In this document: piece after piece, positions 4,051-62,637 of the stretch | How positions within the stretch are numbered: position 1 is the first letter of the stretch | How the letters are laid out: each line of letters opens with the position of its first letter | IMG/VR virus record: IMGVR_UViG_3300037200_000067 | Location: 1 to 64,000 of that record | Reading direction: 5' to 3' (one strand) | DNA length: 64,000 nucleotides | Source of the DNA: a virus | Made by a program: the position numbers and the translations under genes | The notes under the pieces: generated by a model | What the model saw: only the letters and a program-made list of their open reading frames with translations | The model's database searches: none | Told to the model about the DNA's origin: nothing

Positions 4051-4298
4051 TGCGCAACGAGGACAAAATACTGATCTTTGAACTCGCGCGCTGCCCCCTC
4101 GAATGCGCAAATGAGAAGCGTTTTTCAAAATTGATGGTCCGCGCAGCCTATGACGGCGACAGTATTTCTGGAGACGAGCGCAAGGCTCTCTATTTCTTGA
4201 TCCACAGATACGAAGAGACCGTACACACCGATATGTTGGAACTCGCGCTCGACGAAGCCGAGGCATCAGGACTCTACGATCCAATGGTGAAAATATGA
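4050..4298 (+). CDS. Small hypothetical protein, mostly helical
   Basis: 82 residues. The ATG shares its A with the preceding stop codon (TGATG). The sequence is helical and acidic (LALDEAEASGLYDP near the C-terminus) with two cysteines near the N-terminus that do not form a metal motif. No family recognised; it is supported by its exact coupling to both neighbours. Confidence 0.55.
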   Translation: MRNEDKILIFELARCPLECANEKRFSKLMVRAAYDGDSISGDERKALYFLIHRYEETVHTDMLELALDEAEASGLYDPMVKI

Positions 4299-4552
4299 CC
4301 GAGGACGGAAGCATGAGAAATTACTTCAAGCCAAGCGCCGTCCTGGCGGTCAAGGTTGAGGCCACGCCTTTAGCAGGCGGCGCGACGATGACAAAGGAAC
4401 GCCCGCAAATGCTCTTGTCCGTCTCAATCGGCGACGTCCTACGCAGACTGGCGGATGACGTCGATAGCCGCGCCAACTGTTCGGTGCGTTGGAATACAGA
4501 CCCCGATGACGGCACGATCACGATGATGGTGGACTTCAAACCGTGGGTCTGA
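4295..4552 (+). CDS. Small hypothetical protein
   Basis: 85 residues, ATGA-coupled upstream and TGATG-coupled to the minor head protein downstream. An internal ATG at residue 7 (MRNYFKPSAV) is a possible alternative start. The C-terminal half alternates hydrophobic and polar residues as in a beta sheet (DGTITMMVDFKPW). Function unknown. Confidence 0.55.
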   Translation: MTEDGSMRNYFKPSAVLAVKVEATPLAGGATMTKERPQMLLSVSIGDVLRRLADDVDSRANCSVRWNTDPDDGTITMMVDFKPWV

Positions 4553-33797: not shown

Positions 33798-34589
33798 ATG
33801 GTCGACGTCAATTTCGCCGGCTGCTACGCCGACACGCTCGTATTCGAGGGTGGCTACTCGGACAACCCGAATGATCCAGGCGGTTCAACAGATCGTGGAA
33901 TCACCCAGACAACCTACGACGCTTATCGGCGGACCATAGGCGCGTTCACGCGCGATGTCCGCGACATGACGGATACGGAGTGCCGGGCGATCTACCGCAC
34001 GTATTGGGATGCGGTGCGTGGTGACGAGCTATGGGATGGACTCGACCTTCTCCAATATGACGAGTGTGTCAACAGCGGGTCTGCCGAGGCGGTCCGCCTC
34101 ATGCAGCAGACACTGGGCATTGAAGCCGACGGCTTCTTTGGCCTAGAGACGCTCGCCGCCGTCAATGCGGTCGTCGACAAGCCAGCCTTCATCAAAGACC
34201 TCTGTGCCCGGCGCCTCTCATTTTGGAGGTCGCTTTCGACGTGGCAGTTCTTCAAGGGGGGCTGGACGACACGCGACTACGGTATGGAAGCCAAGGCGCT
34301 CGCGCTTTGCGCCACATCGAAAGGCGCTGGGTCGCTTTCTGCTGCACCCGTTCCAGCGCCGGCCCAGCCGCCGAATCCCAGCTATGCTGATGGCTCCACA
34401 GAGTGGCTACAGGCGTCGCTGAATGCCCTCGGGGCTGCGCCGCCGCTGTCCGTCGACGGCGACTATGGCGCGGCCACCACGCGGGCCGTTGTGGCATTCC
34501 AACAGGCGACGAAGGGGCTATGGATTGACGGCGCCGCCGGGCCTAAAACGAAGGCTGCGATCAAAGCAGCACTGGCGGCAAAGTCATGA
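33798..34589 (+). CDS. Endolysin: GH108-type muramidase with peptidoglycan-binding domain
   Basis: 263 residues from ATG 33798 (GAGGGG nine bases upstream; TTG 33792 is possible but less likely). Residues about 10-40 carry the FEGGYSDNPNDPGGSTDRGI signature of glycosyl hydrolase family 108, whose catalytic glutamate is the E of EGGY. A PG_binding_3-like segment with NSGSAEAVRLMQ follows. The C-terminal domain (WLQASLNALG, FQQATKGLWIDG) is a classic peptidoglycan-binding type 1 repeat. It degrades the cell wall at lysis and heads the lysis cassette. Confidence 0.88.
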   Translation: MVDVNFAGCYADTLVFEGGYSDNPNDPGGSTDRGITQTTYDAYRRTIGAFTRDVRDMTDTECRAIYRTYWDAVRGDELWDGLDLLQYDECVNSGSAEAVRLMQQTLGIEADGFFGLETLAAVNAVVDKPAFIKDLCARRLSFWRSLSTWQFFKGGWTTRDYGMEAKALALCATSKGAGSLSAAPVPAPAQPPNPSYADGSTEWLQASLNALGAAPPLSVDGDYGAATTRAVVAFQQATKGLWIDGAAGPKTKAAIKAALAAKS

Positions 34590-35308
34590 ACGATTTCTAC
34601 GTTTACATCGGCGTCCACCCAGACACCGAGGAATCCTGTTATATCGGGAAGGGGCGCGGTCAAAGAATTGGCGATCACTCGCCGCTGCTGAAGAAGGGGA
34701 CGCACCCAAACGTCAGGTTGCAGAGCATCTTCGATAGGCACGGCCCTATCCTATGGGCAAAGCTCCACGAAGGCCTCTCGGAGCGCGAGGCATTCGAGAT
34801 AGAAAAGGCACTTGTCGCGCTTTTGGGCAGGGGGCGCGGCAAGCCGCTTTGCAACAAGACGGATGGTGGTGACGGAACGAGTGGCCATAAGCACACCGAA
34901 GAAGCGCGCGCCAGAATGAGCCGTGCCCAGAAAGGGCACTATGTATCGCCAGAAGCGAGAGCAAAAATAGGCGCGGCGCACCGTGGCAAGAAACTGTCGC
35001 CAGAGCACCGTGCTAAGTTTATTGCCCATAACCACGAGCCAAAGTCGCCAGAACACCTAGCAAAAATTCAGGCGGCAAAGATCGGCAGGCCACGGTCTGC
35101 AGAGACGAAGCAAAAACTTAGTGAGGCGCTGAAGGGACGGAAGCAGCCGGCACGGTCGCCTGAGTACCGCAAAAACATCAGTGAGCACAAAAAGCGATGG
35201 TGGGCCGAGCAAAGGGTAGCCATGGTCGCGCTCGGAATGGAACCTACTTTCGCGGGAATAATCAGAAATGCGCAGGCAAAGCGCGCCGCTTTAAAGGGGG
35301 CGGCATGA
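34586..35308 (+). CDS. GIY-YIG homing endonuclease with NUMOD3 repeats
   Basis: 240 residues. The N-terminus FYVYIGVHPDTEESCYIGKG is a GIY-YIG nuclease start (YVYI and YIGKG as the two motifs). Residues about 95-190 contain repeated NUMOD3-type DNA-contacting segments (EEARARMSRAQKG, PEARAKIGAAHRGKK, AETKQKLSEALKGRK). Such free-standing genes spread by cutting relatives that lack them. It sits between endolysin and the next lysis gene with ATGA overlaps on both sides and looks less GC-rich than its neighbours, which suggests insertion. Confidence 0.85.
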   Translation: MNDFYVYIGVHPDTEESCYIGKGRGQRIGDHSPLLKKGTHPNVRLQSIFDRHGPILWAKLHEGLSEREAFEIEKALVALLGRGRGKPLCNKTDGGDGTSGHKHTEEARARMSRAQKGHYVSPEARAKIGAAHRGKKLSPEHRAKFIAHNHEPKSPEHLAKIQAAKIGRPRSAETKQKLSEALKGRKQPARSPEYRKNISEHKKRWWAEQRVAMVALGMEPTFAGIIRNAQAKRAALKGAA

Positions 35309-45727: not shown

Positions 45728-46336
45728 TCACCCGTAAGCCTTGATCTTCGCCACCATGGCGTCGAGATCGCGATTGAAGTCGATCACGGCCGATCGCAAA
45801 TTCGCGATATAGGCCGGGTCGCGATATGCCCGCTTGATGAACAGCGGCATTTTGGGCCAATAACAAACAAGGTCGCACCACGCGCGCTCTGTGATCCACA
45901 TTTGGCCTTGAACCTGCGCCACATGCTGCGGAGGAAAGTCGCCTTTCTCTAAAATCTCGATCAGCACGGATGGCTTGCAATTCTTGACTTCGAGCAGGCC
46001 ATCTGCGCTCAACAGCGCGTCCGGCGACGCGCCGGCAAGCTCATTTCGAGCGAATGAAATCCGCTTCGGTTCGGCGCCGGCGACCAGCGCATAGGCGAGT
46101 CTGGCCTGCTCTTCCATCTGGCGCCCGCGTTCCATCGCGGCGTTGGTAAACGTCTCCTCGGGTTCGCCGGTGATCCGCTCGCCGGCCAGCCGCAAGAGCA
46201 GCGCGCGCCGCATCTTGCCTTCGCCTTTGGCGAGCATGGCGCCGAATTCTGAGGCGGTGACAATGCCGGCGCGAAGGGCTTTCCATTTGGGAGAGCCTTG
46301 GGGAAAATCTTCGTGGCTGAAATATTCAGTGGGCAT
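45728..46336 (-). CDS. YqaJ-type 5'-3' exonuclease (lambda Exo family)
   Basis: 202 residues from ATG 46336. Start pattern FPQGSPKWKALRAGIVTASE, then ALLLRLAGERITGE and NAAMERGRQMEEQAR, are characteristic of YqaJ. The catalytic core is GASPDALLSADGLLEVKNCK (D, E-x-K). It resects DNA ends for strand annealing, working with the Erf protein upstream in the same operon. Length fits the family. Confidence 0.85.
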   Translation of the reverse strand: MPTEYFSHEDFPQGSPKWKALRAGIVTASEFGAMLAKGEGKMRRALLLRLAGERITGEPEETFTNAAMERGRQMEEQARLAYALVAGAEPKRISFARNELAGASPDALLSADGLLEVKNCKPSVLIEILEKGDFPPQHVAQVQGQMWITERAWCDLVCYWPKMPLFIKRAYRDPAYIANLRSAVIDFNRDLDAMVAKIKAYG

Positions 46337-46598
46337 CGTCAGCGTCCTCGTCTTGGGGAACGCCCGGAACGCGAATCCATTTGATCTCCAGGAAACTGCC
46401 ACTGGCCTGAGGAGCCACCCAAAGGCTTCCATCATCGCAAAGGGCGAGAATTCGAGGATAGTATTGATCCGTTTCGGGGACGTCTGTGACCTGAATTATC
46501 TTCCGCTTCACGGGCCACTCCTTTTTCGACCGGCTCCAGGCGCCCCAAAAGGCGGACGCCATGAGAAAACCTATGACAAACTGCAACGGCTCGACCAC
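46326..46598 (-). CDS. Small membrane-anchored protein
   Basis: 90 residues, GTG start. N-terminal hydrophobic helix (QFVIGFLMASAFWGAW), then a beta-type domain (YYPRILALCDDGSLWVAP, then QASG and FLEIKWIRVP) resembling small phage proteins that display a beta sheet on the membrane. Overlaps the exonuclease start by eleven bases. Confidence 0.6.
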   Translation of the reverse strand: MVEPLQFVIGFLMASAFWGAWSRSKKEWPVKRKIIQVTDVPETDQYYPRILALCDDGSLWVAPQASGSFLEIKWIRVPGVPQDEDADDAH

Positions 46599-46601
46599 GG
46601 C

Positions 46602-47651
46602 TCAATACGCGATCGAAACGCTGGGAACATTCCCCGTCGCGATAGCCCGCACGATCGCCTTCGCGCCATCGGTCGCAGCCTCAGCGGAAATCTTGTCGCC
46701 GGCCAGCAGCAGCGCGATCGTGCTCGCGGCGCGTCCGTTGACCTTGCGGCGGTGCTCGTGATCGGCCTCGCGGGCTGCAATAGCGTCCGCGTCGCGCTTG
46801 CGCTGCGCCTCGGCGGCGTCAGCCTCGGATTTGAGCCGCGCGTTCTCCGCGCGCTCATGGGCTAAGGCCGCGTCAGAAACACGCCGCGCCTCGGCTTCCT
46901 GCGCGAGCCGATCGGCATGTTCCTTGCTCGCCGCTTCCAGTTCGCGGTTGCGGGCCTCATTCTCGCGGTTGCGCGCTTCCTGCAACGCGAGCGCGGCGCG
47001 GCGATCGGCTTCCTCGCGCTCGGCTTGCGCGGCCCGCAGGCTGGCAAGTTCGACTTGTTCGGCCTCATAGCGCACCCGCGCGGCAAAGGCCGTCTGCGCC
47101 TTGTCGCGGGCCTGCTGGACGGTCAATCGATATTCGTCGAAGAAATCCTCGTCCGCAGGCGGGATGAACGCCATCAGCGCCGCGATGTTCGCCTTGATCT
47201 GGTCGGCAGTCAGCGGGTTGCCCATGGAATCGACCGCGCTTCCGAGCAGCGCCAGTTCGTTGATGCGCTGGACGTGCTTGTCTTTGCGCGCAGTCTCAAC
47301 GGCTTCCCATGCAGCGACGGGCGCGCGCACCTGCTCGGCGAGCGCATCAAGCGCGTCACGCATCCGCTTGCGGTTTGCGTCGATGGTCTTCGGCAGTTCT
47401 TTCAGCTTCGCGACCAGCGTCTTGCCAGCGTCGTCGAGGATAGTCTTCGACCGGACGATCTTGTACGCGAACGCCTTCGCAGCCTTGCGGCCTTCCTCAG
47501 TCGTCGCATCGGCGCTGAAATCAGCGACCAGCGCGCGAACCTTCGCGACGTGAACGTCGAGGCCCTTTCCTTCTGGCGCCGTGAAGACGTCCATCGCGGA
47601 ATCAGGGTCGATCGGCGGGGAGACGAAATTGTCGGTCGGTTCGGCGGTCAT
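46602..47651 (-). CDS. Coiled-coil recombination-associated protein (DUF1351-like)
   Basis: 349 residues. N-terminal globular helices (VAKVRALVADFSADATTEEG, TLVAKLKELPKTIDANRKRM) and a coiled coil at about 215-300 rich in A, E and R. Proteins of this shape are regularly found between an annealing protein gene and a YqaJ gene in phages and may assist loading or regulate the exonuclease. The role is inferred from context. Confidence 0.62.
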   Translation of the reverse strand: MTAEPTDNFVSPPIDPDSAMDVFTAPEGKGLDVHVAKVRALVADFSADATTEEGRKAAKAFAYKIVRSKTILDDAGKTLVAKLKELPKTIDANRKRMRDALDALAEQVRAPVAAWEAVETARKDKHVQRINELALLGSAVDSMGNPLTADQIKANIAALMAFIPPADEDFFDEYRLTVQQARDKAQTAFAARVRYEAEQVELASLRAAQAEREEADRRAALALQEARNRENEARNRELEAASKEHADRLAQEAEARRVSDAALAHERAENARLKSEADAAEAQRKRDADAIAAREADHEHRRKVNGRAASTIALLLAGDKISAEAATDGAKAIVRAIATGNVPSVSIAY

Positions 47652-47710
47652 GAAGGGTGCTCCGTGCCGCCTCCCCGCAATGCGCGAGGAGGCGTCGTAT
47701 TTTCGACAGA

Positions 47711-48517
47711 TCAGGAAGCGCCAAGCATTTTGTCGAGGCCGAATCCGGGTTCATCCCAAAAATCGACGATGAACCGGCCGTTGCCCTTCGCGAGGCTTGG
47801 ATTGTTGATGCAGACCATCAGGAACGGGTCAGGGTATTCGATCGCGGGCGCGGGCGCGTAGTCACAAACGAAAAATGAGACAGGCGCTTTCTTGAACCCA
47901 CGTTCAATGGCAGCGACCTTCCTCAGCGCGTGCAGCGGAATGGTCTTGTCGTAGACTTTGACAGGCGACGGAACCGTGAAGGCCTGAGAAACGCCGCCGT
48001 TTCCAAGGGAAACGTAATCAGACGGCAGCCCCAAAGCAGATCGCGCCCTCAGATCATTCGCTTCGGACGGACTCATTTTTCGCGGCCCGACGTAATAGTC
48101 GGAAGCCGGGCTTGATTCTGTGACCCCAAGAGACGCGTGCCAGCGACGCGGGGGTGTTCCGAAAGATACGCCCTCCATGTGGTCCTTTTCGCGCAGCGGC
48201 CGCCATTCCCAGCCTGATTTATCGCGGCTCTCTTCATGCGCCTTTTTGTCCATGTACGCGATGACGTCGGCGAGAGAGAAAAGACCCCAATCCTGCGCGA
48301 TGATGAAATCCTTCAACGCGCCAATGGCGCTGTCGGGAACAGGCACGCCGACAGATTGAGCGAGGCTGGCGTACTCTGCCATGAACGCATCGCGCGATGG
48401 CGCAGCGGGTTCGCGTGACAAGGGCGCGGACGGGATCGGCGGCTTCGGAAGCGTGACGGCCTCCATGACGTCGCCGCCGCCTGAAATACGCCTATTCGGC
48501 CTGAAAAAAGGAACCAT
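47711..48517 (-). CDS. Hypothetical protein
   Basis: 268 residues with AGGAG eight to nine bases before ATG 48517. N-terminal Pro-rich stretch, central helices (SLADVIAYMDKKAHEE) and a conserved-looking C-terminus (DPFLMVCINNP, FIVDFWDEPGFG). Located in the recombination operon. Function not recognised. Confidence 0.62.
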   Translation of the reverse strand: MVPFFRPNRRISGGGDVMEAVTLPKPPIPSAPLSREPAAPSRDAFMAEYASLAQSVGVPVPDSAIGALKDFIIAQDWGLFSLADVIAYMDKKAHEESRDKSGWEWRPLREKDHMEGVSFGTPPRRWHASLGVTESSPASDYYVGPRKMSPSEANDLRARSALGLPSDYVSLGNGGVSQAFTVPSPVKVYDKTIPLHALRKVAAIERGFKKAPVSFFVCDYAPAPAIEYPDPFLMVCINNPSLAKGNGRFIVDFWDEPGFGLDKMLGAS

Positions 48518-48527
48518 GATTCCACTC

Positions 48528-48710
48528 CTATGGTTTGAAGACGCACCATTGAACCCACGTCATTTCGACGTTAATGCCCGCGCAGAATGCGTCAATAACT
48601 GCGAGGTAGGGACGATCGTAGTGAAGCGCGATGGCGCAAGCCAGAGCGCAAAAGACCGCGTTGGCTGGGCACGCGATGCGCATGAATTTGACTGTCGGTT
48701 TGGCAGTCAT
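48528..48710 (-). CDS. Small membrane protein
   Basis: 60 residues. One clear hydrophobic helix (ANAVFCALACAIAL) and a second weaker one around LAVIDAFCAGINV. ATGA-coupled to the gene upstream. Unknown role. Confidence 0.5.
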   Translation of the reverse strand: MTAKPTVKFMRIACPANAVFCALACAIALHYDRPYLAVIDAFCAGINVEMTWVQWCVFKP

Positions 48711-49306
48711 ACGGCATCCTTTGATGGACGGTGCTTTGACGGGCGGTGCTCGCCAAACTTGGAAGGCTTCCTCGGCCCTGGAGCGCCCTCGCTTTCTGCC
48801 ACTCGGCGCCCTAAGGTTCGACGGGCGAAACCAAATTCCTTGGCGACTTGGCCGGCCGGGATGAGTTTGATTTCTGACGTTCGCTCCTCGGGAGGCAATC
48901 CAAAAGCAGCACGCTTGAAGTTTTCGATTGCGTGGCGATCGAAGAATAGGCGCCCGTTTAGCCTCAGTGGTGCCGGAAACTCCGGTGTGGACGTTTTGGC
49001 TTGCTCCGTCGCGACGGGCGGCGCGGGCCGTTCCTTGATCTGCGACGGCTCAGGATTTGTTCCGCCCTTTCGCGGCCCTATCGGCGCCGTTCCGATCGGC
49101 ACCGACTCCAGTTGGTCGATGTAGACGCGGTTCGCTTCGATCAATGTACGCTGGGTGGCGATGAGAGTGTTCAGCGCCGCGACCTCAGTCGCACGCGCTT
49201 CGATGAGCCGCTTACAACTCGCCTGCAAGCGCAGACTGGAGTACCAGGATGCGACCAGCATCACGGATAGAACGACGTCGCATATAAACAGAATGCTAGC
49301 GTTCAC
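48707..49306 (-). CDS. Membrane-anchored protein with C-terminal helix-turn-helix-like region
   Basis: 199 residues, GTG start (GTGA overlap). A hydrophobic N-terminal helix (ILFICDVVLSVMLVASW), a coiled coil (LNTLIATQRTLIEANRVYI), a Pro-rich linker, then KLIPAGQVAKEFGFARRTLG, which resembles an HTH. Ends in a basic RPSKHRPSK tail. Membrane tethering of a DNA-binding domain is unusual; the HTH call is tentative. Confidence 0.58.
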   Translation of the reverse strand: MNASILFICDVVLSVMLVASWYSSLRLQASCKRLIEARATEVAALNTLIATQRTLIEANRVYIDQLESVPIGTAPIGPRKGGTNPEPSQIKERPAPPVATEQAKTSTPEFPAPLRLNGRLFFDRHAIENFKRAAFGLPPEERTSEIKLIPAGQVAKEFGFARRTLGRRVAESEGAPGPRKPSKFGEHRPSKHRPSKDAV

Positions 49307-49677
49307 GCTTGCATCCCTCCGCTCTGCGCGCGCCTAAGCGCCGCATCGCCAGCTTCCGTGATGACATACACCGTAAAGCCATCGCCGACTGCCGCGCGCA
49401 CGAGGCCGCGCTTGGCAAGCCACGCCAGTTGCGACGGCGCGCGCTCTTTGTCGACGCCTTCCGGCGAAGCAGATGCAGCAAGCCATCGCATCGCGCGGAC
49501 CATCTTCGGCGGTCGGACGCGGCGCTCGGGAACGTGGAATGACGTCATGTCAGCGCCACGATCCTTGGCGCACTGCGGCGAGCAGTAGCGCGGGATTCCG
49601 CCGCCCTCGTCATCAATGTACGTTCCGCAGCACTCGCAAAGCGTGCCGTCGAGAAGCATGTCAGCCACGTCGCCCAT
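49303..49677 (-). CDS. Zinc-finger plus winged-helix protein
   Basis: 124 residues from ATG 49677 (TGATG overlap). The N-terminus GDVADMLLDGTLCECCGTYI followed by YCSPQCAKD is a four-cysteine zinc site common in phage early proteins. The C-terminal half (APSQLAWLAKRGLVRAAVGD, VYVITEAGDAAL) is a winged helix. Likely a DNA-binding regulator. Confidence 0.7.
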   Translation of the reverse strand: MGDVADMLLDGTLCECCGTYIDDEGGGIPRYCSPQCAKDRGADMTSFHVPERRVRPPKMVRAMRWLAASASPEGVDKERAPSQLAWLAKRGLVRAAVGDGFTVYVITEAGDAALRRAQSGGMQA

Positions 49678-50555
49678 CACTTGCCTCCTTGCGCGCGCTT
49701 CATCTTCTGATTGAGAAGCGCAATCGCCCGATCGTACGACTCCTTCGGGAGCGCGGAAATCTGCGGGATTTCAAACGCCGCACAGAACGCCGCGCGATCG
49801 GATTTGGTCGCTTCCAGAAGATCGGCAAGCGTCTGCAACTGAGCCGCATCAATGAGATATTCCTCGATTGAGCCAGCCTCCGATCCAGCCGCCCTTCCGT
49901 CATCGTCGCCATCGGTCGGCGCGCGCGACGTAATGTTCAGCAAGAGCGACGCGGTGTACCGTTTGCCATAAGTGATCGACGAGCCCATGGCTTGGACCGG
50001 GTTCTTTGAGCCTGTACTATCGTGCATCAGAACCATTGTCGTCTGTTCCTCGTGGCCTTCACGATGCCCAAGGATGCCCGTGACGGTGATCCGGCCATCG
50101 GGCGCAATGCCAGTCTTGAACGACAGCGCGAACCCGAATTTGGCGAGCGGCCCTTTGATGGCCTCGTTGATATCGGCCAACGACGAATAGGGCGTCTCTT
50201 GAATCGGTTTGGCGTTCGGATTCGGCGGCTGCCTCTCCCGATCGGCCTTGGAATAGACGATAATCCTGCCCGTCTGCGCGACGCCCGGAAGCTCGGGCTG
50301 CATAGCGCTGAAATCAGCGAAGAACGCGGCCTTGGCGCGCCTGGCTTGAACCCTGTCGTGCAGGTCCATCAGCTTTTCGAGCCGCGCGAGATCAACGCTC
50401 GGATCGACTAGCACGCGCTCGATCATCGCGGTGAAGTGGTCCTGCGCGACGGGCGCGGCATGGCGTCCGTGCTGGGCGTGGACGACGCTTCCGCCGTCGT
50501 GAACGCCTTCGCCGACGACGATCGTCTCGACCGCCGCGTCCGTCGTTTCCGCCAT
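49677..50555 (-). CDS. erf: Erf-family single-strand annealing protein
   Basis: 292 residues. The central region (RIIVYSKADRERQPPNPNA, TPYSSLADINEAIKGPLAKF, VQAMGSSITYGKRYTASLLL) matches the ERF superfamily, ring-forming proteins that anneal complementary single strands. With the YqaJ exonuclease further down it forms a Red-like recombination pair. The C-terminus is acidic and then helical. Has its own predicted promoter just upstream. Confidence 0.87.
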   Translation of the reverse strand: MAETTDAAVETIVVGEGVHDGGSVVHAQHGRHAAPVAQDHFTAMIERVLVDPSVDLARLEKLMDLHDRVQARRAKAAFFADFSAMQPELPGVAQTGRIIVYSKADRERQPPNPNAKPIQETPYSSLADINEAIKGPLAKFGFALSFKTGIAPDGRITVTGILGHREGHEEQTTMVLMHDSTGSKNPVQAMGSSITYGKRYTASLLLNITSRAPTDGDDDGRAAGSEAGSIEEYLIDAAQLQTLADLLEATKSDRAAFCAAFEIPQISALPKESYDRAIALLNQKMKRAQGGK

Positions 50556-50580
50556 GCTGATTCTCCGTGCGTGAGAACCA

Positions 50581-50609
50581 GATATATTTTACGCGGCGGG
50601 AAATAACAA
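50581..50609 (-). promoter_or_regulatory. Predicted sigma70-type promoter for the erf operon
   Basis: On the minus strand TTGTTA (50609-50604) and TATATC (50586-50581) are separated by exactly 17 bases, and lie 26-54 bases ahead of the erf start. The -10 lies in a short AT-rich patch in otherwise GC-rich DNA. Confidence 0.55.
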
Positions 50610-50634
50610 CGGACGGAACGATCCTCTCACGTAT

Positions 50635-51018
50635 TTATTTTGTCGCACATTCGGGACAGAATACCGGAGGCGTCCAGTTCGCGTGAATGTGGCCGCGCAG
50701 CGGGACGATCACTTTGCGCTCTGTCCCGCATTCGGCACACAGATACGGCGTCTGGATCGGCGTGTTCAAGTCGATCGGAAGCGCTTTGCCGTGCTGCGCG
50801 GCGCAAACCAGCGCCTCGATCTCTTCCTCGAACGGGTCATCGGGTTTGATTAGCCGCTCTTTCCAGCCCTTGATCGGAGGCCACGAGACGCCCCAGCGCG
50901 CCAGTTGCGCGGCGGTGTAGCCGCCGTTGCGCGACCGTCCGGCCCGAAATTCAGCGATGGTGATCCGGCGCTTGATATTCTCGACGGGCAGACCGGGAGC
51001 AGCTTTGCGACGGGACAC
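50635..51018 (-). CDS. Zinc-ribbon hypothetical protein, first gene of the leftward operon
   Basis: 127 residues, GTG 51018 with GGGGAT at SD distance. N-terminal half is basic and helical (ITIAEFRAGRSRNGGYTAAQ, LARWGVSWPPIKGWKERLI). The C-terminus has LCAEC and FCPEC, a zinc ribbon. Divergently placed from the Cro-like regulator, as an early gene under its control would be. Confidence 0.65.
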   Translation of the reverse strand: MSRRKAAPGLPVENIKRRITIAEFRAGRSRNGGYTAAQLARWGVSWPPIKGWKERLIKPDDPFEEEIEALVCAAQHGKALPIDLNTPIQTPYLCAECGTERKVIVPLRGHIHANWTPPVFCPECATK

Positions 51019-51022
51019 GCGA

Positions 51023-51064
51023 TATCCCCAGCGACAACTTGACGTTTTTTACTCCCTGGGGATA
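51023..51064. promoter_or_regulatory. Divergent control region with 9-bp inverted repeat
   Basis: TATCCCCAG (51023-51031) and CTGGGGATA (51056-51064) are perfect inverted copies with centres 33 bases apart, about three helical turns. Between them TTGACG (51039-51044) is a good rightward -35 with a weak GATAGA -10; leftward, TTGCTA and TAAAAA at 17-base spacing are possible. This is the expected operator for the adjacent regulator. Confidence 0.6.
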
Positions 51065-51073
51065 GAGATAGCA

Positions 51074-51319
51074 ATGGACCTGATGGCCTACATGCAGCGA
51101 TTCGAGCTTGATAATGCGGCCATGGCGCTGAAAATCGGCTGCTCGCAGGGCGCCGTGAACAAGTGGAAATACGGCCACGTCATGCCGACGCCAGTGTCCT
51201 TGCGTAAAATATTGCAGGCGACAAGCGGCCTCGTGACGGCCGATGATATGCTTCAGGCTTTCGAGCGCCAAGTCGCGCGGCAGGCCGCACGCAAAGCGAG
51301 AAACGAGGATGGACAATGA
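51074..51319 (+). CDS. Cro/CI-type HTH regulator
   Basis: 81 residues from ATG 51074. The HTH is MALKIGCSQGAVNKWKYGHV, followed by PTPVSLRKILQATSGLVTADD, the pattern of Cro-like proteins of lambdoid and alphaproteobacterial phages. It opens the rightward replication operon and faces the leftward operon, so it probably controls both through the inverted repeat just upstream. Stop overlaps the next start (ATGA). Confidence 0.8.
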   Translation: MDLMAYMQRFELDNAAMALKIGCSQGAVNKWKYGHVMPTPVSLRKILQATSGLVTADDMLQAFERQVARQAARKARNEDGQ

Positions 51320-52578
51320 GCGCCGACCTCGAATTTCATCCTCTCGCTGAAATATTCCCAACCATCTACGGCGCGGAATTTGATGCACTTGCGTCTGACA
51401 TTGCCGCGCATGGTTTGCGCGAGCCGATCGTGCTTTTCGAGGGCGCTATCCTGGACGGGCGCAACCGATACCGCGCTTGCGCGGAGGCCGGCGTGCCCGC
51501 TCGATTTGAGACGTATACCGGCTCCGATCCGGTTAGCTACGTCGTCAGCCTGAATCTTCGCCGCCGGCATCTGGATGAGAGCCAGCGGGCCATGGTCGCG
51601 GCGCGGCTAGCGAACCTTCGCGACGGACAACGGAAGACAGCTTCGCCAATTGGCGAACGTGCCGTGTCTCAAGCCGACGCCGCCAAGATGCTGAACGTCG
51701 GCAAGCGTTCCGTCGAACGCGCCGTCGAAGTCCGCGACCAAGGCGCGCCAGATCTTATCGCCGCCGTTGATCGCGGCAAGGTCAGCGTGTCTGCTGCCGC
51801 CGATGTGGCGACGCTTCCGAAGGCGCGGCAGGCGGAGGTCGTCAAGTGGTCGCCTGACGATATCGTCAAGGAAGCGAATCGGATCAAGCGCCACCGCAAG
51901 GAGACGAAGCGCGAGGAACGGAAAGCCGAAATTGCCGATCTTGCCGCCGTTGCCGCGCCCGCAGGCGCTCGACACGATCTTCGGCGCGCGCCGTGTTCCT
52001 CAATTCTCGCGTTGGCGCCGAATAGCGCCGAATGGTTCATCACGGACCCTCCGTATCCGAAAGAATTCCTGCCGGTCTATGACGAATTGGGCGCAGCGGC
52101 CGCGCACGCTTTGAGGCCGGGCGGCTCGCTGCTCTGCATGGTCGGTCAGTCTTACCTTCCTGACGTCATTGCGATGCTCGGAAAGCACCTGACCTATCAC
52201 TGGACGCTGGCTTATCTCACGCCCGGCGGCCAAGCCGTCCAGGTGTTCCCACGCCGCGTCAACACCTTCTGGAAGCCGGTTCTTTGGTTCGTCAAGGCGG
52301 AGTTCGATGGTTCGTGGATTGGCGATTCCGTCGCGTCCAAAACAAACGACAATGACAAGCGCTTCCACGAATGGGGCCAGTCCGAGAGCGGCATGCTCGA
52401 TCTTATGGCGCGCTTTGTGCGGCCCGGCGAAACCGTTGTTGATCCATTCATGGGAGCGGGCACTACGGGCGTCGTGGCGCTAGCACTCGGCGCCAAATTC
52501 ATCGGCCTCGATATCAACGAGGACGCGTTCAACGAAGCAACCGTGAGGATGGACCGTGCCGCAAAACTGGTCGCCTGA
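51316..52578 (+). CDS. ParB-domain / DNA methyltransferase fusion (DPPY type)
   Basis: 420 residues. Residues 1-90 are a ParB/Srx-like N-terminal domain (LEFHPLAEIFP, GLREPIVLFEGAILDGRNRY). Residues about 105-190 contain an HTH (SQADAAKMLNVGKRSVERAV). Residues about 225-420 are a DNA methyltransferase with ITDPPYPKEF (243-246) before DPFMGAGTTGV (near 378), the beta-class order also seen in CcrM. It probably methylates N4 of cytosine or N6 of adenine. No partner restriction nuclease is beside it. ATGA overlap with the Cro-like gene. Confidence 0.82.
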   Translation: MSADLEFHPLAEIFPTIYGAEFDALASDIAAHGLREPIVLFEGAILDGRNRYRACAEAGVPARFETYTGSDPVSYVVSLNLRRRHLDESQRAMVAARLANLRDGQRKTASPIGERAVSQADAAKMLNVGKRSVERAVEVRDQGAPDLIAAVDRGKVSVSAAADVATLPKARQAEVVKWSPDDIVKEANRIKRHRKETKREERKAEIADLAAVAAPAGARHDLRRAPCSSILALAPNSAEWFITDPPYPKEFLPVYDELGAAAAHALRPGGSLLCMVGQSYLPDVIAMLGKHLTYHWTLAYLTPGGQAVQVFPRRVNTFWKPVLWFVKAEFDGSWIGDSVASKTNDNDKRFHEWGQSESGMLDLMARFVRPGETVVDPFMGAGTTGVVALALGAKFIGLDINEDAFNEATVRMDRAAKLVA

Positions 52579-53029
52579 CGGCACGCGCCAAGAGCGCACG
52601 GGCTGGCGAGATGCGGAAGTCAGTGCGCGCCATCGGCATTGGGGGATGAACTGCCCTGCCGTCGATCTCGATTTTCTGATGGTCGAATACAACCTCGGAA
52701 AGCCTGTCGCGCTTGTGGAGTATAAACATCACTACGCGCGAACGCCGAACCTCCTGCATCCAACGTACCGCGCCATTCGTATGCTAGCGGACGGCTATCG
52801 GGACGACCCGCTGCCCTTTATCGTCGCCTTCTATTGGTCGGACATATGGGCATTCCGAATCGTTCCTGTTAACGAAGTCGCTGAGCGACATTTCAAATTT
52901 AATGAGCACGTCAGCGAACGAGAATTTGTATCGCGCCTCTACCGGATGCGCCGACTCGTGTTGGCTGCGCACTTGAAGGATTCCCTTCATACCGAACTTC
53001 CTGCGGAAGCCGCAGAAAGCCACACCTAA
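52556..53029 (+). CDS. Putative nuclease-fold phage protein
   Basis: 157 residues, GTG start overlapping the methyltransferase by 23 bases. TGWRDAEVSARHRHWG, CPAVDLDFLMVEYN and ALVEYKHH recur in phage replication regions; the D...E-x-K arrangement would fit a PD-(D/E)xK nuclease core. Not tested; a non-catalytic relative is possible. Confidence 0.62.
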   Translation: MPQNWSPDGTRQERTGWRDAEVSARHRHWGMNCPAVDLDFLMVEYNLGKPVALVEYKHHYARTPNLLHPTYRAIRMLADGYRDDPLPFIVAFYWSDIWAFRIVPVNEVAERHFKFNEHVSEREFVSRLYRMRRLVLAAHLKDSLHTELPAEAAESHT

Positions 53030-53050
53030 CGAACTACTGGAGAAGCGATC

Positions 53051-53623
53051 ATGGGGCGCCCAAAGGGATCAAAGAATCGTCAGGCTGGAGCAGCGAAAGC
53101 CGCCAAATCAGCGCCGCGCAGCGACGGCGTGACCACCACGAAGCACAATATCGCGGCGGCGGCGGCTTCGCTCACCGATGACGAGCGCCAGGCTCTGACG
53201 CGCCATCACGTCGGGCAATACAAGCGCGATCTAGAGGCCAAAAAGGCGGCGGACGCGACGTTCAAAAACACCTGCAAAAAGGCCAAGTCGGACGGCGTCG
53301 CGCTGTCGGAAATCAAGACTTTCATCGAAATGGAAACGCCAGAGGGCGAAAAGCGCGTCGCCGAAAACCTCGAACAGTCGCTCCGGATCGCGCGCTGGCT
53401 CGGGTCGAACATCGGCGACCAGCTCGGCCTCTTTGCCAATGGCGAAGCGGACGGCGACCCTGCGGGCGCGGCCTATCGGGCCGGCAAGCGGGCGGCGATG
53501 GAGAACAAGAAGGGCATTCCGCCAAGCCATTACGATCGTGACGAATGGCTGCGGGGCTACCAGGACGCGCAAGCGGCCTTGATCGAAAGCATGGGCACGA
53601 AGGAAGGCGCGGCGGCGCACTGA
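53051..53623 (+). CDS. RMF-like protein with N-terminal AT-hook-like motif
   Basis: 190 residues. The start MGRPKGSKNRQ resembles an AT-hook. Residues about 135-180 (AYRAGKRAAMENKKGIPPSH, DEWLRGYQDAQAA) fit the ribosome modulation factor pattern A-x-x-x-G-x-x-A...W-x-x-G-[YW]. The middle is helical and charged. RMF inactivates ribosomes in resting bacteria; here a role in translation control or nucleoid binding is only inferred. Confidence 0.6.
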   Translation: MGRPKGSKNRQAGAAKAAKSAPRSDGVTTTKHNIAAAAASLTDDERQALTRHHVGQYKRDLEAKKAADATFKNTCKKAKSDGVALSEIKTFIEMETPEGEKRVAENLEQSLRIARWLGSNIGDQLGLFANGEADGDPAGAAYRAGKRAAMENKKGIPPSHYDRDEWLRGYQDAQAALIESMGTKEGAAAH

Positions 53624-53629
53624 GGATCG

Positions 53630-54151
53630 ATGCGCCTGCTGTTTCTCGATCTCGCCCGGCGCACCGGCTACGCCTACGGTCGCGCCGGGCAGATTCCGAC
53701 GTCCGGCTCGCTGACGCTGCGCGACGTCGACGACAGCAAAGGCCTCGCGATCGGCGCGCTCGGAAGGTGGCTTAGCGACCTGATCATCGCGGAAGGACCG
53801 CCCGATCTGATCGGCATCGAGCGCTGGCTCCCGCCGAAAATCAGCCGTAACGCCGTCTCGACTGAGGACGCGCTGCGCATGAACGGATGCATCCACGGAA
53901 TTGCGGGAATCTATGGGATTAATATCGTCGAGCCTTATCCGGCCACAATCAGATCAGCGGTCTGCGGGCGCTCGCACGCGGCAGGCGAAAACGATATCGG
54001 GACAAAACGGATGGTCATTGATACGATGATCTTGCGAAAATACATCCCGAAGGGCTGCGAGGACCATGACCGTGCCGACGCTTGCGCCGGATTCGCGTGG
54101 ATGGAAGCCTATTGCGTGCCGGTCGGGCAGTCGAAATTCAAGCTGATGTAG
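53630..54151 (+). CDS. RuvC-like Holliday-junction resolvase
   Basis: 173 residues. Acidic catalytic pattern of the RNase H/RuvC fold: D7 in LLFLDLARRTGYA, E64 in LIGIERWLPP, and D147/D150 in EDHDRADACAGFAW. Phage RuvC-like enzymes resolve branched replication intermediates before packaging. Length is typical. Confidence 0.8.
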   Translation: MRLLFLDLARRTGYAYGRAGQIPTSGSLTLRDVDDSKGLAIGALGRWLSDLIIAEGPPDLIGIERWLPPKISRNAVSTEDALRMNGCIHGIAGIYGINIVEPYPATIRSAVCGRSHAAGENDIGTKRMVIDTMILRKYIPKGCEDHDRADACAGFAWMEAYCVPVGQSKFKLM

Positions 54152-54159
54152 GGGCGTTC

Positions 54160-55419
54160 ATGGACCTCGAATTTCACCCGCTCGCCGCCATTTTCCCATT
54201 GATGCAGCCGGCTGAATTTGCGGAGCTTGTCGCCGACATCAAGGCCAACGGAATCCGCGACGAAATCGTGGTGCTCGACGGCAAGATTCTCGACGGACGA
54301 AACCGGCATCTGGCCTGCCAAGAGGCTGGCGTGAAGGGCGTCTATGCGACGTTCGACCCGGAGGTCGACGGTCCCGATCCACTTGCTTTCGTGATCAGCC
54401 ACAACATCAAGCGCCGGCATTTGAGCGAAACGCAGCGCGGCATGGTCGCCGCCAATCTCTGCACCATGCCACTCGGAGGCGCGTTTTATCGGACGGCACG
54501 GTTGCCGACCGATCGGCCGCTCATATCGCAGGCCCAAGCCGCGCAAATGGTAGGGGTGTCCGAGCGCACGGTTCGAGACTGCGTAAGGATCAAAAACGAG
54601 GGTTCTCCGGAACTGTCGGACGCGGCGCGCGGCGGTCAAATTCCCGCCAGCGTCGCCGCCAAGGCCACACAACTGCCCCCAGATCAGCAAGTCGCGATTG
54701 CCAAGGCTGCTGAGGCCGGGAACACGCGCGCCGCCTCCACGGTCGTTAAAAAGGCCGCGCGCGCCAAGCGCGAAACCGACCTTGCCGCCGCGCAACTGGC
54801 GCTGCCGGCGAAGCGCTACGGCGTGATCCTCGCCGACCCGCCGTGGTCGTTCGAGGTCTGGGCTGCGGAAACCGGCATGGACCGTGCGGCAGATAACCAC
54901 TATCCGACAAGCACGATCGAAGACATCAAAGCGACGGATATCGGCTCGATCGCCGCTGACGATTGCGTGCTGTTCCTGTGGGCGACGTCGCCGATGCTGC
55001 CGCACGCGCTGATGGTGATGGCGGCGTGGGGCTTTGAATATAAATCGAGCGCGGTGTGGATAAAAACCAAAGACGGCACCGGATATTGGTTTCGCAACCG
55101 GCACGAGCTTCTTCTGGTCGGCACGAAGGGCAATATTCCGGCGCCAGCCATGGGCACGCAAGACTCGTCCGTCATCGAAGCGCCAGCCCGCACGCATTCC
55201 GAAAAGCCGGACGAGGCCTACGAACTCATCGAAAAATATTTTCCCACAGTCCCCAGAATCGAACTGAATGCGCGCCGAAAACGAGCCGGATGGGACGCTC
55301 ACGGAACGCTGGAGCGCGAGATTCGCCTAGAGAATCCTATTGTCAATTCCCGCCCTGTAAACAAACGCAAAACGCCGCCTCCGGGGGGCGGAAGCGGCGC
55401 CTTGACGTCTTCACGATGA
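54160..55419 (+). CDS. ParB-domain / MT-A70-type adenine methyltransferase fusion
   Basis: 419 residues from ATG 54160 (AGGGG upstream). Residues 1-90 (LEFHPLAAIFP, IVVLDGKILDGRNRHLAC) and the HTH region (SQAQAAQMVGVSERTVRDCV) are close relatives of the protein at 51316. The C-terminal half differs: VILADPPWSFEVW (DPPW near 227), then LFLWATSPMLPHAL and ELLLVGTKG, the MT-A70 family of N6-adenine methyltransferases. The last ~15 residues are low-complexity and overlap a strong hairpin. Probably targets a different site from its paralogue. Confidence 0.83.
   Translation: MDLEFHPLAAIFPLMQPAEFAELVADIKANGIRDEIVVLDGKILDGRNRHLACQEAGVKGVYATFDPEVDGPDPLAFVISHNIKRRHLSETQRGMVAANLCTMPLGGAFYRTARLPTDRPLISQAQAAQMVGVSERTVRDCVRIKNEGSPELSDAARGGQIPASVAAKATQLPPDQQVAIAKAAEAGNTRAASTVVKKAARAKRETDLAAAQLALPAKRYGVILADPPWSFEVWAAETGMDRAADNHYPTSTIEDIKATDIGSIAADDCVLFLWATSPMLPHALMVMAAWGFEYKSSAVWIKTKDGTGYWFRNRHELLLVGTKGNIPAPAMGTQDSSVIEAPARTHSEKPDEAYELIEKYFPTVPRIELNARRKRAGWDAHGTLEREIRLENPIVNSRPVNKRKTPPPGGGSGALTSSR
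55373..55399 (+). terminator. GC-rich hairpin at the 3' end of the MT-A70 gene
   Basis: CGCCGCCTCCG pairs with CGGAAGCGGCG around a five-G loop, eleven pairs with one mismatch. No T-run follows, so termination efficiency is uncertain; it may instead slow the polymerase before the replication gene. Confidence 0.45.
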
Positions 55420-55558
55420 CGAGGCACAAAAGGTGCGTCTTGGGCCGGCCAGCCCGTTGACGCGGAGCCAACGATAAGAGGGTATCGGTGACTGAATATT
55501 TCTTTACAGCATTTATTATCACGTTGCAACCGTGCGGCGCTAGCGCTGGCGGTCAACG

Positions 55559-56323
55559 ATGATTCCGGCGCCAGTCCTAGTTCAACTCGGGACGATCGGC
55601 CTCTCGCCGGACCAACTTGCGGCCGTCGCTGAAATGCTTCGCACGGTTGAAGAAGCCACGATCACGGACCTCAGCGGCCGGATCGAAGTCGCCGAGGAGG
55701 AGGCGCTTCGCCTCGCGCGGGCGAAAAATGCCGATCGGCAGGCGCGCTTTCGAGAGCGCCAAGCGGCAAATAGTAACGTTACTTCTGACAATTTAACGTT
55801 ACGTAACGTTACGAAACGTTACGCGACTCGCGCGCCCACGCGTGCGCCCGGTCTTCTTTTCGAAGAAAGAGTAGAAGAGTCCCCCGTTGACGCTAAGAAG
55901 CGTCAACAGCCCCCAAGGGGGCGCGACGACGAAAACAGCCGGGCTCGTCGATTGCCAAAAGATTGGCTCCCATCGGAAGCCCATCGCTCCCAAGCCGCAG
56001 CGCTTGGCCTTACGCCGCTGGAGCACGAGGAGATCGCAACCGAATTTCAGAATTATTGGTGGTCGGAAGGCGGGCAGAAAGCCCGCAAAATCGATTGGGA
56101 ACGGACCTACACGAATCGCCTGAATGAACAGGCAAAACGGGTTTTGAAAGGAAAGCAAAATGGGCGACGAAGAACTGTTCACGACGCAGCCCGCGACCTC
56201 TGCGATTACGTCGATGCCGGCGGCAAGCTCAACATCCCTCCCATCCCTCCAGTCCCATCGTTGTTCGAACTCCGTAGCGTCCCAACGAGCCCGTCTTTTG
56301 CTCGGCTGCTACCGGAAAGGTGA
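55559..56323 (+). CDS. Phage replication protein (lambda O / helicase-loader-like)
   Basis: 254 residues. N-terminal coiled coil (EEATITDLSGRIEVAEEEAL, ADRQARFRERQAAN), then a linker encoded by the iteron DNA, then a domain RLPKDWLPSEAHRSQAAALG ... FQNYWW ... KIDWERTYTNRLNEQ that is typical of phage replication initiators or helicase loaders. C-terminus TVHDAARDLCDYVDAG. A 139-base AT-richer leader separates it from the gene upstream; I see no clear SD. The 3' end overlaps the next gene by 164 bases. Confidence 0.68.
   Translation: MIPAPVLVQLGTIGLSPDQLAAVAEMLRTVEEATITDLSGRIEVAEEEALRLARAKNADRQARFRERQAANSNVTSDNLTLRNVTKRYATRAPTRAPGLLFEERVEESPVDAKKRQQPPRGRDDENSRARRLPKDWLPSEAHRSQAAALGLTPLEHEEIATEFQNYWWSEGGQKARKIDWERTYTNRLNEQAKRVLKGKQNGRRRTVHDAARDLCDYVDAGGKLNIPPIPPVPSLFELRSVPTSPSFARLLPER
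55774..55823 (+). repeat. ori (candidate): 10-bp iteron array, candidate replication origin
   Basis: TAACGTTAC(G/T) or AAACGTTACG occurs at 55774, 55794, 55804 and 55814, all in exact 10-base phase, with one degenerate unit at 55784. Each core (AACGTT / GTAACGTTAC) is itself palindromic. The period is one helical turn and not a multiple of three, so the repetition is selected at DNA level, not protein level. A 20-base near-palindrome precedes it at 55741-55760. Confidence 0.65.
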
Positions 56324-56789
56324 GGCCGAGGACCCGGATACCTTCCTGACAGCCCTTGTTTCGATCTTGATGGGCTATCCCGAATCGGTCGTGATCCGCG
56401 TGACCGACCCGCGCACGGGCATTCCTGGATCATCGAAATTCCTGCCAACGATCGCCGACGTGCGCCACGAGTGCGAAGTCGCCATGGCGCCGATCTATCG
56501 GGAACGCGAGAGAGTCGCCAAGGCGGCGCAGGCCGAGGAGCGGGAGCGCAAAGAGGCGCAGGGCGACCCTCAGAAGCGGGCAGAAACGCTTGCGCGTCTC
56601 AAGGCGGCATATCCGGGCATGTTCAACGAGACGGGCCGTGGGGCAGGCTCCCTGAAGCCGATCGCGGACATAATCGAGGAGCGCAAGACGGATTGGTCCA
56701 AGCCGTGCGGGCCGCTCTCGCCAGCCGTCCTGAAAACGCTCGGCCTGCTACAGGAGGAACCCGAACCGGACCCACGCGATTACGAATGA
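56160..56789 (+). CDS. Replication-region hypothetical protein
   Basis: 209 residues. AAGGAAAG stands about six bases before ATG 56160, so the start is good despite the 164-base out-of-frame overlap with the replication gene. The first ~40 residues are low-complexity (Ser/Thr/Ala); the conserved-looking part is ARLLLGCYRKGEAEDPDTFL, VVIRVTDPRTGIPGSSKFLP and TIADVRHECE, a pattern found next to phage replication genes. Function unknown. Confidence 0.68.
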   Translation: MGDEELFTTQPATSAITSMPAASSTSLPSLQSHRCSNSVASQRARLLLGCYRKGEAEDPDTFLTALVSILMGYPESVVIRVTDPRTGIPGSSKFLPTIADVRHECEVAMAPIYRERERVAKAAQAEERERKEAQGDPQKRAETLARLKAAYPGMFNETGRGAGSLKPIADIIEERKTDWSKPCGPLSPAVLKTLGLLQEEPEPDPRDYE

Positions 56790-61972: not shown

Positions 61973-62170
61973 GTGGCGGCACAACCCGTAAAAGCCGATG
62001 AAAAGCCGAAGCCGGAACGCCTGTTTCTGGGCGAGTTTGCGATTGAGCTTCGCGACGTGATCGAGGACGAGCGCGCGCACGAGCGACCAATCCCAGCCTT
62101 CAAGGCGATGGTCGAGACCCTGATCCGCGAAGCCGCTGCCGCGCGCCGCGCCAAACGCGAGAAGCCCTGA
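61973..62170 (+). CDS. Small helical protein preceding gcrA homologue
   Basis: 65 residues from GTG 61973, with AAAAGGGAG nine bases upstream; ATG 61943 would add ten residues but lies at or before the predicted transcription start. Sequence is helical (RLFLGEFAIELRDVIEDERA, FKAMVETLIREAAAARRAKR) and basic at the end. TGATG overlap couples it to the GcrA homologue. Confidence 0.6.
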   Translation: MAAQPVKADEKPKPERLFLGEFAIELRDVIEDERAHERPIPAFKAMVETLIREAAAARRAKREKP

Positions 62171-62637
62171 TGGCCTTCAAGTCACCATTCTGGACCGAGG
62201 AACGCGCGAAACAGCTTCTCGCGCTCGACGCCGAAGGAAAAACCTCAGTCGTCATCGCGCAGGAAATAGGCTCGACCAAAGGCGCGGTCATCAGCAAGCT
62301 CGCGAGCCTGCGCGGCCGGCGCCCGAAGGCCGCGCCGAAGCCCAGCGTCGAAAAACGCCAGAGGCCTGTCAGCGACGCTCCCAAGCCGTTTGGAAAGGCT
62401 CGACCCACGCCAGTTACGGATGCTGGCGCGCCGGCGCCGGCCAGCCGATTTGTCTGTTGGGATGCGCTCGACCTCGGGACCGACTGCAAATTTCCGATCG
62501 GCGATCCCAAAGAGGATTTTGAAGGACTTCGATATTGCGGCGCGCCGCAAGCGCCAGAATCGCGCTCGTGGTGCGCATGGCATTTCGATCTGTGCTTCCC
62601 GACGCGCGGGCAGCGTTACCAGAGGAGGGTTGCGTGA
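62170..62637 (+). CDS. gcrA-like: GcrA-family cell-cycle regulator homologue
   Basis: 155 residues. The N-terminal HTH (FWTEERAKQLLALDAEGKTS, then IAQEIGSTKGAVISKLASL) and the C-terminal domain (CWDALDLGTDCKFPIGDP, RYCGAPQAPE, WCAWHFDLCF) match GcrA, an alphaproteobacterial protein that binds sigma70 and favours promoters carrying methylated GANTC. The linker (about 50-92) is Pro/Ala/Lys-rich. In a phage it could recruit host RNA polymerase to phage genes or change the host cycle programme. Confidence 0.85.
   Translation: MAFKSPFWTEERAKQLLALDAEGKTSVVIAQEIGSTKGAVISKLASLRGRRPKAAPKPSVEKRQRPVSDAPKPFGKARPTPVTDAGAPAPASRFVCWDALDLGTDCKFPIGDPKEDFEGLRYCGAPQAPESRSWCAWHFDLCFPTRGQRYQRRVA

Follow-up and report, generated by a model that had tools for sequence, protein, structure and literature searches.

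Twin ParB-headed methyltransferase genes in a phage replication operon point to a family built from exchangeable heads and catalytic domains

RESULTS

Two genes of one operon share a ParB-like front and differ in their catalytic ends

We analyzed bases 1-64000 (hereafter, the window) of the 74,259-base virus record IMGVR_UViG_3300037200_000067 of the IMG/VR database. The subject of this work is a pair of genes in the window whose products, P0001 and P0002 (the twins), join a ParB-like head and a helix-turn-helix (HTH) region to a methyltransferase domain. The window encodes a portal protein, a major head protein, and a tape measure protein and therefore comes from a tailed phage, which is siphovirus-like. 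The DNA at 50900-55900 had no match in a blastn search of 50,697 phage records.

When P0001 and P0002 were compared by BLASTP, only their front halves aligned, with 84 of 204 residues identical (41%, E 8e-47), in agreement with the ParB-like front and HTH that an initial annotation, made from the sequence alone, had ascribed to both. The difference in catalytic ends that it had described was also borne out, both ends scoring above the Pfam cut-offs. P0001 carries a DPPY motif, and its residues 251-408 match N6_N4_Mtase (PF01555; E 6.8e-15, 56 bits, cut-off 26.7); P0002 carries a DPPW motif, and its residues 220-382 match MT-A70 (PF05063; E 4.8e-27, 95 bits, cut-off 23.9). Shared fronts joined to backs of different classes are far beyond chance.

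P0001 can be divided into a ParB-like head (residues ~4-100), an HTH (~117-165), a linker helix (180-211), and a methyltransferase (~216-420). Its AlphaFold model [mean predicted local distance difference test (pLDDT) score of 85, predicted template modeling (pTM) score of 0.57] has alpha/beta structure in the head and helices in the HTH region, followed by a long linker helix and a catalytic domain. In Foldseek searches of solved structures, the front matched Spo0J (1vz0, E 2.9e-7) and Noc (7nfu, E 3e-6), and the back matched CcrM (6pbd, E 1.4e-13), followed by M1.HpyAVI and other beta-class methylases. The head falls short of the Pfam ParB model and was detected by PHROG ParB models, by phmmer against Noc structures, and by structure comparison. 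Its nucleotide boxes, DGRNRY and NLRRRHL, align with GERRWR and NLQREEL of Noc, and residues G48, R51, R83, and R84 were invariant in the alignments made. In the back, an FxGxG motif is present after DPPY. Judging by the 41% identity, the head of P0002 probably has the ParB fold as well. P0002, searched at full length, matches phrog_21315 (E 3.5e-87), which spans it almost end to end and is listed without function; its back matches METTL3 chains (E 3e-16). The same beta-class catalytic fold as in P0001 is found in CcrM, M1.HpyAVI, and MboIIA. CcrM has a C-terminal DNA-binding part of its own; unlike CcrM, P0001 has a catalytic half of about 200 amino acids (aa) with the ParB-HTH head in front.

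The operon (Table 1) begins with a small HTH regulator whose stop codon overlaps the start of P0001. The regulator matches HTH_3 (E 1.8e-4) and YdaS (E 7.5e-5), both below the Pfam cut-off, and a PHROG transcriptional repressor (E 1.1e-7). The replication setting proposed for both twins was confirmed: a replication-initiation/DnaT-like gene follows P0002, and ERF and YqaJ/RecE-type recombination genes (Pfam, PHROG) lie nearby on the opposite strand. The 190-aa gene between the twins had no homologue in the loci of relatives compared for operon context. ParABS partition systems have a ParA ATPase gene beside ParB; in contrast, no ParA family match was obtained with Pfam among ten proteins of 45728-56786, a list that includes part of the genes.

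Table 1. Features of the twin methyltransferase locus (window positions unless marked as record positions).
Feature	Position	Strand	Remarks
Small HTH regulator, 81 aa	51074..51319	+	First gene of the operon; ATG at 51074
P0001, 420 aa	51316..52578	+	ParB-like head, HTH, beta-class DPPY methyltransferase
P0001 catalytic motif DPPY	52045..52056	+	Residues 244-247; unchanged in all alignments made
Companion, 157 aa	52556..53029	+	PD-(D/E)XK-like; GTG start within the 3′ end of P0001
Companion D37, D39, E44, E55-x-K57	52664..52726	+	PD-(D/E)XK-like signature
Gene of unassigned function between the twins, 190 aa	53051..53623	+	phrog_26995, E 8.9e-13
RuvC-like Holliday junction resolvase	53630..54151	+	phrog_159, E 5.6e-6
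P0002, 419 aa	54160..55419	+	ParB-like head, HTH, MT-A70 methyltransferase
P0002 catalytic motif DPPW	54835..54846	+	Residues 226-229
Replication-initiation/DnaT-like gene	55559..56323	+	3′ of the twins; phrog_1408, E 1.6e-13; DnaT, E 4.9e-4 (below cut-off)
Third ParB-headed methylase, outside the window	record 70607-71962 (L387 9608-10963)		PF02195, E 4.8e-5 (just under cut-off); PF01555, E 1.3e-20

Heads and catalytic domains are exchanged across the family

Scans of viral sequences with the single proteins returned 1 and 0 loci, and alignments were used for the searches instead. Open reading frames (ORFs) were read stop to stop, and some head lengths include untranslated bases. Among 287 ORFs with a full ParB-HTH head, the head was joined to MT-A70 in 159, to N6_N4 in 48, to methylases of the NPPY and NPPF classes (labels given by motif, not by Pfam) in 11 and 4, respectively, and to none of these in 65. 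Solo heads occur in plasmids that also carry separate parAB. When methylase labels were mapped onto a 206-row tree of the heads, the labeled rows required 17 changes, compared to 40-51 for shuffled labels and a minimum of 3. On this tree, methylase type is clustered, yet appears to have been switched many times.

The catalytic subfamily of P0001 comprises 72 distinct members with the signature WGQ. The 67 usable heads of this set formed ten groups without mutual match at E 0.001, with ParB heads accounting for 41 of the 67, and the catalytic tree of the subfamily required 18 head changes versus a minimum of 9. Five of the ten head groups are also found on MT-A70 domains, four by head matches and the fifth in a related phage. 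For P0001 itself, identity to L252, L177, and L181 is 61%, 61%, and 58% in the catalytic half but 25%, 31%, and 22% in the head. The 15 best relatives of the P0001 head (50-61% identical) stand before MT-A70 in 11 cases and before no tested methylase in 4. Sequence comparison thus indicates that exchange goes both ways in many phages: heads swap catalysts, and catalysts swap heads.

The end of P0001 overlaps a conserved companion gene

The initial annotation placed the twins in an operon without a restriction nuclease. This is doubtful and probably wrong, since the 3′ end of P0001 is overlapped by a conserved PD-(D/E)XK-like gene, which we call the companion. The companion is covered by phrog_16357 (E 1.6e-22), another family listed without function. 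It matched no Pfam family at E 0.1 and nothing in NCBIfam or PADLOC, and scans of its homologues gave no convincing match in Pfam (ten homologues), NCBIfam (seven), or PADLOC (three). A profile search of solved structures, which covers the families in that set, also gave no match. In an alignment of 71 distinct homologues, the signature residues were conserved in most filled rows (D37 in 67/70, D39 in 68/70, E44 in 67/70, E55 in 60/70, and K57 in 68/70). We take this D...ExK signature to be typical for PD-(D/E)XK nucleases. The AlphaFold model (pLDDT 86, pTM 0.78) has the order helix, two strands, helix, strand.

To estimate linkage without methylase bias, viral contigs were searched by the companion alone. 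This search yielded 57 loci, among which near-identical contigs remain (e.g., L338, L340-L342, and L347-L349) and some contigs were already present among loci gathered earlier. A methylase of P0001's class lies directly upstream of the companion in 44 of the 57 loci (ParB-headed by model in 26, not in 18). Three loci start too near a contig end, and ten, eight of which were read by eye, are without any of the four methylase classes tested. From the methylase side, 52 of the 72 members of the P0001 subfamily have the companion, 18 lack it, and 2 more are at contig ends; since this set includes companion-fetched loci, 52/72 is biased upward, and 44/57 is the fair figure. An earlier count found the methylase within a set distance in 24 of 27 rows, two of which (L001 and L002) represent the window. 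The companion was also found in fourteen Streptomyces phage records; in YDN12, it lies near a methylase of another class, and in Xkcd426, no methylase is nearby. The companion thus often, though not always, accompanies P0001-class methylases, which speaks against a plain restriction enzyme.

Related phages carry the MT-A70 gene behind different heads

The major head protein, used as the query, retrieved nine relative contigs (64-84% identity). The P0001 catalytic half with the companion was found in none of the nine, which may be fragments, in a companion search that lacked a positive control. An MT-A70 gene is present in three of the nine contigs and is ParB-headed in one. Since its head is ParB in G005, of a second type in G006, and of a third type in G001, the MT-A70 gene changes head between related phages. 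The catalytic half in G006 is 57% identical to that of P0002 over 224 aa, behind a different head.

An MT-A70 gene was found within 5 kb for three of the 72 P0001-subfamily loci (the window, L173, and L380); both flanks exceed 3 kb in only 24 of the 72. The MT-A70 gene of L173 is without a ParB head. In L380, ParB/MT-A70 spread over two overlapping frames (243-2058) is followed by ParB-N6_N4 and the companion; the split may be due to a genuine frameshift or to an error in sequencing.

The heads of the twins are not each other's nearest relatives: in BLAST rankings of head relatives, the twin comes 111th for P0001 and 9th for P0002. Both head trees, including a careful 57-row tree, place the twins apart.

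P0002 belongs to an MT-A70 clade with an altered catalytic motif

At the position where aligned METTL3 has Phe after IEL (IELFGR), P0002 has Asn. From the alignment and the METTL3 structure, this residue is presumably the pocket Phe. We compared 149 distinct MT-A70 domains, of which 76 have DPPW, 49 DPEW, and 24 other motifs. The pocket Asn is carried by all 49 DPEW domains, whereas 71 of the 76 DPPW domains have Phe there, as METTL3 does, and also have Met at another, linked position. DPPW with Asn was found in P0002 alone among the 149. The MT-A70 protein of a related phage, outside this set, has DPPW with Tyr at the same position (read by eye). P0002's group (61 rows) is supported by a Shimodaira-Hasegawa–like approximate likelihood ratio test (SH-aLRT) value of 87 and consists of 49 DPEW, 6 DFEW, 2 DCEW, 1 DYEW, and 2 DPAW domains and a single DPPW domain, that of P0002. 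In loci fetched by the head alone, DPEW still accounted for 9 of 42 and is therefore no artefact of the search pattern.

The pocket Phe may be a defining trait of the MT-A70 family, and P0002 is without it. The exact co-variation of DPEW with Asn suggests an active site that is changed but selected. A literature search for DPEW and methyltransferase found no paper.

A third ParB-headed methylase and other features of the record

A third ParB-headed methylase is encoded outside the window, directly upstream of the terminase large subunit gene (record 72360-73889); the twins are ~17 kb or more from the terminase. This brings the ParB-headed methylases of the phage to three and their head types to two. 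Two methylase-like ORFs lie side by side at 4065-4721 and 4721-5377 of L387 (record about 65064-66376), one with a DPPY-like motif and no Pfam match and the other with a weak Methyltransf_11 match.

A GcrA-like protein is encoded at window 62170-62634 (PF07750, E 2.9e-12). In Alphaproteobacteria, GcrA reads CcrM methylation, so this phage may be able to sense methylation in addition to writing it. There are 567 GATC sites (493 expected) and 140 GANTC sites; these numbers were not used, since methylation cannot be inferred from counts. A homing-endonuclease-like ORF is present at window 34586-35305 (phrog_314, E 1.5e-24). A tRNA-Gly(tcc) predicted at 50454-50541 (+), inside the ERF recombinase gene at 49677-50555 (-), is possibly a false call.

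DISCUSSION

The interpretation that we favor, with a probability of roughly 0.6, is that the twins are head-plus-catalyst phage DNA methylases that arose by separate assembly from exchangeable parts, a pool of which circulates among phages. The head would recognize DNA sites and, by analogy with ParB and Noc, may act as a nucleotide-gated clamp. During the early phase of DNA replication, it would thereby guide to phage DNA a catalyst that can hardly recognize targets by itself. Each twin would add an amino-methyl mark, most likely N6-methyladenine (m6A), with N4-methylcytosine (m4C) possible for P0001. Such marking would serve escape from host or rival restriction, or the labeling of replicating DNA. 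A PD-(D/E)XK nuclease or resolvase is the probable identity of the companion, which would act with P0001-marked or unmarked DNA.

Several results weigh against this interpretation. In approximately unbiased (AU) tests, a clade of the twin heads was not rejected (p 0.17), nor was a clade of P0001, L173, and L248 (p 0.07) or a single clade of all N6_N4-fused heads of the set (p 0.10). The catalytic half of P0001 is nearest to that of L173, which is itself ParB-HTH-headed, and P0001 may therefore have been inherited as a ready-made fusion instead of arising by a new swap. As for the companion, its fold had no Foldseek match at E 0.001 against solved structures, and in VIA-align comparisons, pyrophosphatase C-domains (Z about 6) scored above Holliday (Hjc) resolvases (Z 4 to 4.7). 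The domain shuffling proposed in the initial annotation is therefore well supported for the family, where heads and catalysts are exchanged both ways, but only suggested for this pair, because the AU tests reject no twin clade and L173 also has a ParB-HTH head. In the phylogeny of both halves, which had been put forward as a check, the catalytic tree revealed head exchange, and the head trees set the twins apart with a twin clade unrejected.

Alternatively, P0001 and the companion could be a compact restriction-modification system in which the companion cuts unmethylated DNA and the head targets or regulates, with P0002 as a separate orphan methylase. The constant gene order, with overlap or direct contact, at 44 of the 57 companion-found loci, the conserved D...ExK residues, the helix-strand-strand-helix-strand order of the AlphaFold model (pLDDT 86), and the movement of the methylase-companion unit between heads are all consistent with such a system. 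Yet ten of the 57 companion loci have no tested methylase class adjoining, as in Streptomyces phage Xkcd426, the companion of YDN12 is near a methylase of another class, and 18 of the 72 methylases do without a companion. A true restriction enzyme without its own methylase should harm its carrier, and we regard this explanation as unlikely.

Somewhat less likely still is descent of both twins from one ancestral ParB-methylase that was duplicated in the phage line, with the catalytic half of one copy replaced, as the initial annotation would have it. The single operon, the single head type with its 41% identity, and the unrejected twin clade agree with duplication. The BLAST ranks and both trees do not favor such an intragenomic origin, and in the nine relative contigs (possible fragments), the P0001 catalytic half with the companion is absent, whereas the MT-A70 gene occurs in three, once with a ParB head. 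That one targeting module supplies two specificities is a proposal; the two heads are 41% identical and not nearest neighbors by BLAST, although the AU test does not reject a twin clade. The least likely explanation is that the heads serve mainly in regulation or partition, with catalytic ends that are weakly active or act off phage DNA, e.g., on RNA for MT-A70: the MT-A70 family includes RNA methylases (as in the METTL3 match), many P0002 relatives have an altered catalytic motif, and solo heads exist in plasmids, but P0001 keeps DPPY and P0002 keeps DPPW, a Pfam scan of ten proteins from the operon region gave no ParA, and a phage MT-A70 enzyme with GATC specificity on DNA is described in the accessible part of PMC7556043.

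Separate assembly from exchangeable parts has to be seen against known systems, for which we rely on the accessible parts of the papers cited. Both fusion types are already in print (PMC12704722, PMC6536676). A PNAS 2025 survey (PMC12704722) reports ParB folds fused to N6_N4 methylases as frequent in phages and prophages and ParB fused to MT-A70 in archaea, i.e., the same builds as the twins; its accessible part makes no mention of both fusions in one operon, a companion, phage MT-A70 fusions, or non-ParB heads on the same catalysts. In Paracoccus prophages, 36 proteins with an N-terminal ParB fused to an m6A/m4C methylase were found at a ParB-terminase locus, beside the terminase, and suggested to direct modification during packaging (PMC6536676). 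The third ParB-methylase of our phage, upstream of the terminase, fits this arrangement; the twins differ from it in lying in the replication operon and having an HTH in their heads. A Bacillus cereus ParB-methylase with nicking activity is cited in PMC5512222. The GATC-specific MT-A70 DNA methylase belongs to Serratia phage BZS1 (PMC7556043); such phage enzymes and METTL3 combine the MT-A70 fold with DPPW, as does P0002, which has Asn where METTL3 and most of the compared DPPW domains have Phe and sits within a mostly DPEW clade. We did not find the companion linkage, the two-way head exchange, or the DPEW clade described, the literature having been searched by term for DPEW only.

The companion linkage provides a first functional lead for an uncharacterized gene family. 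For the fold that methylates human mRNA to m6A, the DPEW/Asn clade is a clean instance in which residues of the catalytic pocket changed in concert, and one open to experimental test. A far-reaching and improbable extension is that phages possess a combinatorial modification system that freely pairs a small number of DNA-binding heads, including ParB clamps, with several methylase cores, one core having a dedicated new nuclease partner, plus a ParB-headed MT-A70 line (DPEW with Asn) with a different reaction or base. If it were true, the unit would be one of head-programmed modification-restriction or marking, and P0002, which has the Asn and keeps DPPW, would be a natural intermediate toward the DPEW active site. 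If the heads set the site of methylation, the family would be a natural swap set showing a ParB-type clamp in place of a target-recognition domain, and phages would change specificity by exchanging modules rather than by mutating residues.

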